A stretch of 58,351 nt of DNA from Mariprofundaceae bacterium (GTDB lineage Bacteria; Pseudomonadota; Zetaproteobacteria; Mariprofundales; Mariprofundaceae): assembly GCA_015488115.1 (NCBI GenBank), contig WFOK01000029.1, forward strand, positions 1 through 58,351. The letters are read 5' to 3'. Shown here one piece after another: positions 9,936-12,089 of this stretch. Below the pieces are notes generated by a model. The model ran no database searches. It worked only from the letters and a program-made list of their open reading frames with translations, and was not told the origin of the DNA. Made by a program: the position numbers and the translations under genes. The stretch's first letter is position 1, and each line of letters starts with the position of its first letter.

Positions 9936-9990
9936 GACCTGTTAACAGTCTTTCCGTCGACTTGACAGGGGCCATGTCGCCGATCACGAG

Positions 9991-10125
9991 GTGCTCATCG
10001 GGTTTGCCGCACCCGGGGCTATCGGTCTGTTTCGTCAGTTCATGCTCTTGCTGACGTTTCCATTCGTCGTTTCGGTCGGACTGCTTGGCGCCTGGTTGCT
10101 GACCTTTGCTCGGCATGGGGTGTAG
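9991..10125 (+). CDS. Possible small membrane protein (44 aa)
   Basis: Within the 320-nt spacer after glgB there is an open frame from a GTG at 9991 to a TAG at 10125. It encodes a strongly hydrophobic stretch (FMLLLTFPFVVSVGLLGAWL) followed by a basic end (TFARHGV). The frame is open from an in-frame TAA just upstream, so the start is uncertain, and there is no good ribosome binding site. It could be a genuine small membrane protein, the tail of a decayed gene, or chance. It lies on the same strand just ahead of the LapA-like unit. Confidence 0.25.
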   Translation: MLIGFAAPGAIGLFRQFMLLLTFPFVVSVGLLGAWLLTFARHGV

Positions 10126-10255
10126 GCGGCCTGTTCACGCGCCCGTCCGATGGGCTGTCGCATCCGTCCCCGTCGTCCATGTGATATGTCCGTGTGACAA
10201 AACGACCGGCTTGCGCGTCTATATGGAAAAGAAGGGAAACGGAGGTCATGGTGAG

Positions 10256-10453
10256 ATGAATCGCGCGCGTTTGCGGTTGATCATCGTGCTGATGGTGACG
10301 GCTCTGCTGGGCTTTGTGGTCTGGCAAAACCTGCAGCCTGCGGCGTTCGGTGTGCTGGGCTGGCGCATCAAGGCCCCCTTGGCCATTTGGGTGGCCGGCG
10401 CCTTTGCGCTGGGCTTTGGCACGGGTTGGATGGCATGCCGGAGGCGCGCATGA
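10256..10453 (+). CDS. LapA-domain (DUF1049-type) small membrane protein
   Basis: A 65-aa protein with two hydrophobic helices (LRLIIVLMVTALLGFVVWQN, then an Ala/Gly-rich helix ending GTGWMACRRRA). The sequence between them, NLQPAAFGVLGW, fits the LapA/DUF1049 pattern (helix, QN-x-V-V linker, helix). GGAGG lies about 12 nt before the ATG. LapA of E. coli works with LapB in lipopolysaccharide homeostasis; here no lapB follows. Instead its stop overlaps a small unknown gene by ATGA, which overlaps an MscS-like gene, suggesting an envelope-related unit. Confidence 0.7.
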   Translation: MNRARLRLIIVLMVTALLGFVVWQNLQPAAFGVLGWRIKAPLAIWVAGAFALGFGTGWMACRRRA

Positions 10454-10701
10454 GTGGCCTGGAACGGGTCTCAGCCCAGATGGTGCTGAGGCGAATTGCG
10501 GACCTGAGAGGTACGGCGCCACCCGAGCCGGCCAGGGCAGGACGGCGCTTGGCGCGTCGGCTGATCCTGCGCGATGCGCTCGATGGTCTGGCTCGGATTT
10601 GGGTCGTGCTGGCCCGTCTACTGGCCCCTTGGCTTGCGCGCGCAGCATCTGTTCATCTTTCTCCATCCCGGAAACCAAGTCATGAGGAGGTGGATCAATG
10701 A
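10450..10701 (+). CDS. Hypothetical protein in LapA-MscS unit
   Basis: An 83-aa protein that I do not recognise. It is Arg/Ala/Leu-rich, with a basic N-terminal half (MVLRRIADLRG, ARAGRRLARRLIL) and an amphipathic or weakly hydrophobic stretch IWVVLARLLAPWLARAA, then a polar tail. It overlaps its upstream neighbour by 4 nt (ATGA at 10450) and its downstream neighbour by 4 nt (ATGA at 10698). Tight coupling on both sides and a GAGGAGG ribosome site for the next gene within its end support a real gene. A membrane-peripheral role is only a guess. Confidence 0.6.
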   Translation: MSGLERVSAQMVLRRIADLRGTAPPEPARAGRRLARRLILRDALDGLARIWVVLARLLAPWLARAASVHLSPSRKPSHEEVDQ

Positions 10702-11546
10702 ACGACATTTTGCATCAGGCCCAGGCCTATGTCATGGACCCCCTGAGCACGCTCTGGGCGCGGTTGGCGGCATTGTTGCCGAATCTCGCAGGGGCCGCGC
10801 TGATGATGCTCGTTGGCTGGTTGTTGGCCCGCTTGTCAACCGGTCTGACATCCAGGGTTGCTGCGGCCCTTGGCCTGGATGCATTCGCCGAGCGTGTGCA
10901 GCTGAGCCAGGCCATGGCCTGCCTGGGTGTGCGTGATACCTTATCCCGGCTGTTGGGCAGGTTGGTTGGTCTGTTCGTGTTCGTCGCTTTTCTACTTTCG
11001 GCACTTGATGCTCTGCACCTTTCGGCCGCATCCGAGGCCATGCGTGCATTCCTGCTGTATTTTCCGCGCGTGTTCGGGGCCTTGCTTGTGATCATTGGCG
11101 GTCTGTGGCTGGCGAAAGCCGCGGGCTCCTCGGCCGAGCGCGTTGCCGAGGGAGCGGGGGTGGATGCATCGCGCCTCATTGGGCGGATCATTCAGGGCTT
11201 TATGACCTTTCTGACCGTGATGTTGGCCGTTCGTCAGCTTCAACTGGATGTTGGGCTTGTGGCCGAGGTGCTGGGCATCGCGCTGCTGGCTGCGGGAGCA
11301 GCTACGGCACTGGCCTTGGGCCTGGGTGCCCGCGCTCTCGCCGGAGAACTTTTGGCCGGAGCCTATGTGCGGGAGCTGTTTGCTCCGGGCGATGAATTGG
11401 AACTCGATGGCGGTCGAACGGGCGAGGTTGTGGAGGTCGGCGCGGTGAAGACCGTGTTGCGCATGGGAGACGGACGCCTGTTGAGCCTGCCCAATCGGGA
11501 GCTCGTCGATCGGCCGGTGCTGCGCCGCGTGATGGAAGACAACTGA
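10698..11546 (+). CDS. MscS-like mechanosensitive ion channel family protein
   Basis: A 282-aa inner-membrane protein. The N-terminal half contains several hydrophobic helices with the TM-helix repeat pattern (LVGWLLARL, then FPRVFGALLVIIGGLWLAKA). A pore-type helix rich in Gly and Ala follows (AAGAATALALGLGARALAGELLAG split across residues about 200-225). It ends in a beta domain FAPGDELELDGGRTGEVVEVG with LLSLPNRELVDRPV, typical of MscS proteins. The large C-terminal vestibule of E. coli MscS is missing, so it belongs to the short channel class. It is the third gene of an overlapping unit and is followed 6 nt later by an ECF-type sigma factor, an unusual partner. Confidence 0.82.
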   Translation: MNDILHQAQAYVMDPLSTLWARLAALLPNLAGAALMMLVGWLLARLSTGLTSRVAAALGLDAFAERVQLSQAMACLGVRDTLSRLLGRLVGLFVFVAFLLSALDALHLSAASEAMRAFLLYFPRVFGALLVIIGGLWLAKAAGSSAERVAEGAGVDASRLIGRIIQGFMTFLTVMLAVRQLQLDVGLVAEVLGIALLAAGAATALALGLGARALAGELLAGAYVRELFAPGDELELDGGRTGEVVEVGAVKTVLRMGDGRLLSLPNRELVDRPVLRRVMEDN

Positions 11547-11552
11547 CGCTTG

Positions 11553-12089
11553 ATGATGCGTCGCAGGCTTTCTCAGCTTGCCGACGCTGAGCTTGTGGCA
11601 TTGGCCCGGGCGCATCCCCGGCGGCGGGATGCGTTCGAGGAGCTTGCGCGCCGGCACCTTTCCTTCCTGCACGATTATTGTTTCCGGATCTGCATGGATG
11701 CGGATATGGCGGCTGATTGCGCGCAGGAGGCCATGGTTCGCGCCTGGTTGCGCATGGGTGAGCTGCGCGATGATCACCGTTTTGTCGCTTGGTTGCGGCG
11801 GATTGCAACGCGCCTTTGTCTCGATGGCCTGCGACGCAGGCGCCGGGAGGAGGCGTTGCATGCCGGTCTTGTGGCTCCGGAGCCTGGCATGTCTCCCGAT
11901 GAGCATCTATTGTTGCGTCAGGCCCTGGCTTCCTTGTCGGCCGAGGATCGGGCGCTGGTCGTGTTGCGGGCGGATGGCGCGCGTTGGCGCGAGGTGGCTG
12001 ATGCGCTCGGGCTTTCGGAGTCGGCCGCCCGCATGCGCGGCAGCCGGTTGTTGAAACGGATGGCCACGATGCTCGACGCCAGCAGGTAG
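11553..12089 (+). CDS. RNA polymerase sigma factor, ECF-type (sigma-70 family)
   Basis: A 178-aa protein with a sigma region 2 (about residues 25-90, FEELARRHLSFLHDYCFRIC, AADCAQEAMVRAWLRM, FVAWLRRIATRLCLD) and a region 4 helix-turn-helix (LASLSAEDRALVVL, WREVADALGLSESAARMRGS). Regions 1.1 and 3 are absent, as in ECF factors. The start may be 11553 or 11556. It follows the MscS-like gene with 6 nt between, and converges on prfC. No anti-sigma gene (ZAS or similar) is adjacent, so control may come from transcription of the unit or from the membrane proteins upstream; that is inference. Confidence 0.88.
   Translation: MMRRRLSQLADAELVALARAHPRRRDAFEELARRHLSFLHDYCFRICMDADMAADCAQEAMVRAWLRMGELRDDHRFVAWLRRIATRLCLDGLRRRRREEALHAGLVAPEPGMSPDEHLLLRQALASLSAEDRALVVLRADGARWREVADALGLSESAARMRGSRLLKRMATMLDASR

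Follow-up and report, generated by a model that had tools for sequence, protein, structure and literature searches.

A probable distant member of the CfrX-CmpX-SigX kind, with a predicted promoter of its own, in a Mariprofundaceae bacterium

The closest described counterpart of the locus studied here is the SigX module of Pseudomonas aeruginosa, in which cmaX, cfrX and cmpX lie directly upstream of sigX and oprF (PMC7641640). According to that report, CfrX is a protein of 84 aa with unknown function, CmpX is a homologue of MscS, and both cfrX and cmpX are SigX targets. Expression of sigX rises after membrane-altering treatment, and CfrX is named "one of the main candidates" for the control of SigX. 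The same report states that it is not known how SigX is regulated, and it regards the promoter consensus as "not precisely defined". In a sigX mutant of P. aeruginosa, the expression of cfrX, cmpX and sigX falls (PMC3832394), and overexpression of cmpX was described as leaving sigX and cfrX nearly unchanged (PMC10965496). A 2022 review assigns SigX to ECF102 and presents it as the only example studied of control by a "mechanosensing complex"; it describes CfrX as a soluble putative anti-sigma factor, gives a tension link from the channel to the sigma factor as the leading idea for Pseudomonas, that is, as a proposal, and mentions ECFs that have no anti-sigma factor (PMC8999054).

We analyzed a stretch of 58,351 nucleotides (contig WFOK01000029.1), hereafter the window, from a Mariprofundaceae bacterium of the Zetaproteobacteria. 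The first-pass annotation had placed four genes on one strand at 10256-12089, with 4-nt overlaps at two of the junctions and a 6-nt gap at the third, and these coordinates were reproduced (Table 1). One ATGA overlap joins the lapA-like and 83-aa reading frames, and another joins the 83-aa and MscS-like frames; the gap between the channel and sigma genes shrinks to 3 nt if an alternative TTG at 11550 is used. Pfam recognized LapA_dom in the first product (PF06305, E 4e-9, best stretch 38/64 positions), PF05552 in the channel (E 7e-17), and Sigma70_r2 (E 6e-15) and r4_2 (E 3e-7) in the sigma factor. The 83-aa protein had no match in Pfam or NCBIfam and no recognizable anti-sigma domain, and the NCBIfam search of the unit gave nothing specific. 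The flanking genes are, as we read them from their translations, presumably glgB upstream and a convergent prfC downstream.

Table 1 Features of the unit in the window.
Feature	Position	Strand	Basis
5'-truncated remnant of a 90-aa membrane-protein gene, left edge of the gained or rearranged segment	9969..10125 (about)	+	Congener comparison
Predicted -35 element (TGTGAC) in the unit's promoter	10193..10198	+	Conserved across lineages
Predicted -10 element CGTCTA, 17-nt spacer	10216..10221	+	Motif comparison
Ribosome-binding-like GGAGG, 10 nt 5' of the lapA ATG	10241..10245	+	Sequence
lapA-like (DUF1049) gene, small membrane protein, 65 aa	10256..10453	+	ORF, Pfam
cfrX-like gene, 83 aa, candidate anti-sigma factor or adaptor, hydrophobic C-terminal helix	10450..10701	+	ORF, profiles, model
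cmpX-like gene, MscS-family channel, 282 aa, ends after the beta-domain	10698..11546	+	ORF, Pfam, model
ECF sigma factor gene, SigX-like, divergent, 178 aa	11553..12089 (ATG start)	+	ORF, Pfam, tree

The last three genes have the order, the tight coupling and the CmpX-type channel of the P. aeruginosa cfrX-cmpX-sigX module, and the small protein is of nearly the same length (83 aa vs 84 aa). In contrast, glgB and lapA are found upstream, where P. aeruginosa has the CorA-like CmaX, prfC is found downstream, where it has OprF, and the sigma factor and CfrX-like protein are very divergent from those of P. aeruginosa. An orphan sigma factor with no partner was considered and dropped, because these three genes match the module. 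We conclude that the unit is very probably a distant, rearranged member of the CfrX-CmpX-SigX (ECF102) kind. It resembles RpoE-RseA and zf-HC2 pairs in that an ECF sigma factor is co-encoded with a small, possibly membrane-linked protein and in its predicted autoregulation, but it differs from them in having no recognizable anti-sigma domain and in having an MscS-like channel as the membrane partner.

A CmpX alignment search of GTDB genomes gave 449 related loci, of which we retained the 80 whose CmpX is most similar to that of the window. These 80 are mostly Pseudomonadaceae, and two of them (L048 and L079) are apparently one locus. To count as CfrX-like and abutting, an ORF had to be 60-130 aa long and to end no more than 60 nt upstream or 100 nt downstream of the start of cmpX. 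Within the best 80 of 449, such an ORF abuts cmpX in 80/80 loci, and 80/80 have an adjacent sigma gene, downstream in 79 and upstream in one (Bdellovibrionales). The corA gene lies upstream in 69/80 and oprF downstream in 74/80, whereas lapA was found upstream in 0/80. The genes cfrX and cmpX mostly overlap or abut across loci. In the window, the cfrX-like gene is likewise directly 5' of the channel gene, with the sigma gene adjacent. All four genes recur in the same order in G021 (locus L047), a second genus of the window's family, whose CmpX is about 36-37% identical to the window's. The recurrence of the four-gene order and of the three-gene core is far beyond chance. The core of cfrX, cmpX and the sigma gene is thus kept well outside close relatives, contrary to the refuting outcome that the first-pass annotation had named (genes not kept together outside close relatives); lapA accompanies the unit in the window and G021 only.

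We also surveyed the wider distribution of such units. They were found in 3/300 genomes of the order of a Tepidimonas MAG and in 3/240 genomes of the phylum of the Bdellovibrionales MAG, each count including that MAG. The two new units of Bdellovibrionota whose context was examined both show the order sigma-cfrX-cmpX. In the window's order, 6/78 genomes match CmpX at E 1e-12, with the full score in the window's genome and G021 only; in a sample of the window's phylum, 25/398 genomes match CmpX at E 1e-40. Two loci from a family of this phylum (L186 and L187) read OmpA-domain gene-cfrX-cmpX-sigma. These comparisons show that CfrX, CmpX and the sigma factor always travel together, while CmaX, OmpA/OprF and LapA are swapped. 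The OprF and CmaX neighbors are a feature of Pseudomonadaceae and not of all units. OmpA-domain or OprF-like genes were repeatedly observed beside units, on either side (L047 1655-3659 in G021, L049, L082, L120, L186 and L187), and some of them share the unit's promoter region; the window has no such gene.

We evaluated the 83-aa protein by phmmer with a set of 90 sequences. The best match was the Tepidimonas CfrX (E 8.5e-8), followed by the CfrX proteins of L051 (9e-6), L183 (3e-4) and G021 (0.005). Of four profiles tried, the three non-Pseudomonas CfrX profiles each placed it first among the 492 ORFs of the window (E 1e-4 to 1.8e-4), and 0/2000 shuffles reached its score with them. A Pseudomonas-only profile missed it, with 522/2000 shuffles scoring as well, and a mixed profile ranked it second (E 0.56). 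The Pseudomonas and non-Pseudomonas profiles matched each other with a probability of 96 (E 5e-9), and a PDB sequence search with the CfrX-family alignment gave no match. One hydrophobic stretch near the C-terminus was present in 21/21 CfrX members inspected. Its mean hydropathy over 19 residues was 1.7-2.1 in 10/12 non-Pseudomonas members besides the window's, lower in L103 and L185, about 1.5 for the window's protein and between 0.8 and 1.5 for eight Pseudomonadaceae, suggesting that CfrX is membrane-associated in most lineages. The AlphaFold model of the 83-aa protein has two helices, 4-19 and 29-69 (mean pLDDT 71, pTM 0.33); in the hydrophobic helix the pLDDT reaches about 95.

Judged by these sequence comparisons, the 83-aa protein is a highly divergent CfrX and a candidate anti-sigma factor. 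The first-pass annotation had described a sigma unit without an anti-sigma gene. This is probably wrong, as CfrX is the candidate anti-sigma factor of SigX and was found only with sigma-linked channels: it was present in 80/80 of the loci kept and absent at 7/7 loci where a CmpX-like channel has no neighboring sigma gene. At a second CmpX-like channel without a sigma gene (L188 2996-3898, genome G862), a different ORF of 89 aa ends at the start codon of the channel.

The window's CmpX scored 259 bits with a profile built without the window, and the best of 14 non-linked MscS proteins scored 177. In the CmpX tree, the sigma-linked channels do not strictly form one group, since one non-linked channel from the Bdellovibrio phylum falls inside. 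In the channel model (mean pLDDT 84, pTM 0.54), long N-terminal helices precede a pore helix and a beta-domain that resemble those of MscS, after which the chain ends; the Pfam beta-domain is just below its cut-off (18.6 vs 20.2 bits). The pore helix and beta-domain are common to E. coli MscS and align with its residues 23-175, approximately (Foldseek E 4e-7). Unlike E. coli MscS, the window's channel has extra N-terminal helices and no C-terminal alpha/beta vestibule domain: the model stops after the beta-domain at 282 aa, and the MscS match ends at about residue 175. Without the vestibule, the cytoplasmic face of the pore would be uncovered in the predicted structure and might serve as a docking site.

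The 23 CmpX-linked sigma factors, the window's among them, formed one group against 19 other ECFs (support 94/90) and were a single group in 93% of bootstrap trees. In this tree, the window's sigma factor groups with SigX-type sigma factors. It has an unusual composition and sits on a very long branch (2.05). Against this grouping, with a profile made without the window it scored 101 bits, and two unrelated ECFs scored higher (117 and 105); eight other linked sigma factors tested by leave-one-out profiles scored 153-191 bits. The window's protein keeps 23/34 columns conserved at 85% or more.

We searched for a promoter of the unit. A scan for sigma-70 consensus promoters and terminators gave no plus-strand promoter before lapA. 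The motif TGTGAC-N15-18-CGTC occurs twice in the window against 0.37 expected. It was sought in a 360-nt stretch at the unit start, which was set by hand for the unit of L182, and was present in 8/14 representatives (shuffles: mean 0.017, at most 1 in 300) and in 70/78 Pseudomonadaceae, so that the Pseudomonadaceae units and the window have the same motif in front. When 369 dyads from the window's upstream sequence were compared, the promoter dyad was the best, being common to 7/13 other representatives; shifted versions of it were common to 5 and 3, and every other dyad to at most one. The motif stands before the units in Pseudomonas, Burkholderiales and G021 and before a neighboring ompA in other Gammaproteobacteria. 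In L186 and L187 it is located not at the unit start but before the unit's ompA gene. Near-matches only were found in L049, L082 and L071, and L184 had no promoter motif in the 360-nt stretch. In G021 it precedes both the unit and a divergent ompA gene, and an extra 170-aa ORF and this ompA-domain gene (PF00691) share the promoter region, unlike in the window. In 62/65 loci with a readable DPFE start, the distance from the end of CGTC to the cfrX ATG is 26-27 nt, which roughly agrees with the published cfrX leader of 13 nt (PMC7641640). A literature search on SigX, Pseudomonas and TGTGAC found no paper on this promoter, and a ChIP-seq study of 2015 reports a logo for a SigX motif (PMC4362757).

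We then considered the motif genome-wide. The full form TGTGAC-N16-18-CGTCTA gave 8 matches in 18 genomes, 6 of them at a unit, and at least one match in 6/10 unit-bearing genomes. It occurs once in the window's genome, at the unit, and once in G021, before the ompA divergent to the unit; eight further members of the family, where the search gave no close CmpX, have no match. A reversed-pattern control matched these genomes more often than the motif itself did; thus, position and not number carries the promoter evidence. A broad regulon in the window's genome was considered and rejected, as the relaxed motif (N17, CGTC alone) gave one further site there, inside an ORF read as uvrC. The uniqueness of the full motif suggests a small, self-activating regulon, and the direct regulon in this genome is probably the operon itself, whereas the SigX regulon of P. 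aeruginosa comprises hundreds of genes. The relaxed motif gave 6 sites in G021, of which four form two divergent pairs within about 5 kb. One pair lies between the unit and ompA. The other (L191 2332-5493) separates an operon with a CorC/CNNM gene, a second CmpX-like channel gene and an MgtE_N/CBS gene from an operon that we take to be RimK-type, suggesting from motif positions that further targets of the sigma factor may lie about 5 kb from the unit.

The standing of LapA was examined separately. The window's genome and G021 have one LapA each besides that of the unit, and G001, G002 and G003 have one each. LapA as a core part was rejected, since it was found in 0/80 of the best 80 of 449 loci and another LapA is present in the genome; it is an accessory in the window and G021 only, outside the conserved core. 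The two unit LapA proteins resemble each other (0/2000 shuffles), a result that is limited to this pair. Because each of them also has a comparably close match among other LapA proteins, the resemblance does not establish a shared origin of the pair. Literature searches on LapA/DUF1049 or Zetaproteobacteria together with mechanosensitive and sigma-factor terms found no such module among the papers listed.

In the congener G003, whose glgB is 87% identical, glgB and prfC lie on one contig and are separated by a short interval without the unit; in G001 and G002 the matches to glgB and prfC are on separate contigs. The G003 interval has an intact 90-aa membrane-protein-like ORF (L143 2510-2782, minus strand), of which the 5'-truncated remnant at about 9969-10125 in the window is a copy, and, where the window has the unit, a helix-turn-helix fragment (L143 2152-2331, minus strand), possibly an insertion-sequence remnant. 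The GC content of the unit is 63.9%, compared with 58.7% elsewhere in the window, and is higher than in any of the 1058 other stretches of equal length (largest 62.4%), whereas that of the G021 unit equals its surroundings. Because the unit is absent from the G003 interval and is GC-rich, it was probably acquired, with the window's lineage as the likely recipient and loss in G003 as the alternative.

A self-activating ECF operon whose sigma factor is held by CfrX at a CmpX-type channel is, in our judgment, probably the best explanation overall. Judging from the sequence, the sigma factor would transcribe its own operon from TGTGAC-N17-CGTCTA before lapA. The CfrX-like protein may bind the sigma factor and keep it at the membrane, through the C-terminal hydrophobic helix, beside the CmpX-like channel. 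A change in membrane tension or lipid packing would alter CmpX, CfrX would be loosened, and the freed sigma factor would amplify the operon, giving more channel and more inhibitor and hence a self-limiting response. LapA, a second copy in the place of CmaX, might conceivably act on the lipopolysaccharide or envelope side. Holding by CfrX together with release triggered by CmpX is a serious possibility that we place a little short of even, and these two steps are proposals in Pseudomonas as well. A simple titration model is not favored, because overexpression of cmpX was reported with almost no change in sigX or cfrX (PMC10965496). We put forward tentatively a further reading in which CfrX serves as a minimal anti-sigma factor anchored in the membrane, the vestibule-less MscS-type channel holds it, and tension gates the sigma factor directly.

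The same reported overexpression result (PMC10965496) also suits co-regulation only, by which the sigma factor would drive an envelope-repair operon (LapA, channel and small protein), nothing in the operon would sense or hold it, and its level would be set by transcription or proteolysis. An autoregulatory promoter would be enough to account for the linkage, and ECFs without an anti-sigma factor exist (PMC8999054). However, CfrX tracks the sigma factor (80/80 vs 0/7) despite changed gene order and accessory genes, and such strict tracking is not expected of a mere target gene; we thus regard co-regulation only as rather unlikely. CfrX could also be the sole anti-sigma factor, with CmpX a passenger osmolyte valve and no sensor, as a small protein with two predicted helices beside a sigma gene fits a minimal membrane-linked anti-sigma factor. 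The constancy of CmpX, equal to that of CfrX, and the mostly overlapping or abutting genes of the two make this unlikely. The long branch and unusual composition of the sigma factor, the absence of the unit from the congener's glgB-prfC interval, the high score in 2/78 genomes of the order only and the raised GC content would all suit a recently gained fragment in which the sigma factor and CfrX are decaying. Yet the unit has four open and closely coupled frames, regions 2 and 4 are recognized in the sigma factor, and its promoter, which occurs once in the genome, is undamaged. Decay is not expected to preserve such a promoter, so that a degenerating fragment seems quite improbable.

If the tentative reading of direct gating by tension is true, these units would form a distinct type of mechano-gated transcription switch that spans phyla, marked by a conserved promoter (TGTGAC-N17-CGTC) and by envelope accessories that can be exchanged: CmaX, OprF/OmpA and, in the window's lineage, LapA. 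The cfrX-cmpX-sigma module itself is known from Pseudomonas, and the recurrence of this promoter across lineages is new here. The cross-lineage set separates indispensable from swapped parts and provides a concrete promoter for testing. The window's operon is a pared-down form that probably has a single promoter in the genome, and a mechanism leading from tension to the sigma factor could be studied in it with few confounders.

The other ECF gene of the window's genome, on contig 35 (L002 1348-2294), has a small neighbor with a weak zf-HC2 match (E 5e-4, below the cut-off), which is likely an ordinary anti-sigma gene. The unit of L051 comes from a MAG labeled Chloracidobacterium, but its CmpX and sigma factor group with Burkholderiales-type units, for which gene transfer or a misbinned contig is possible.
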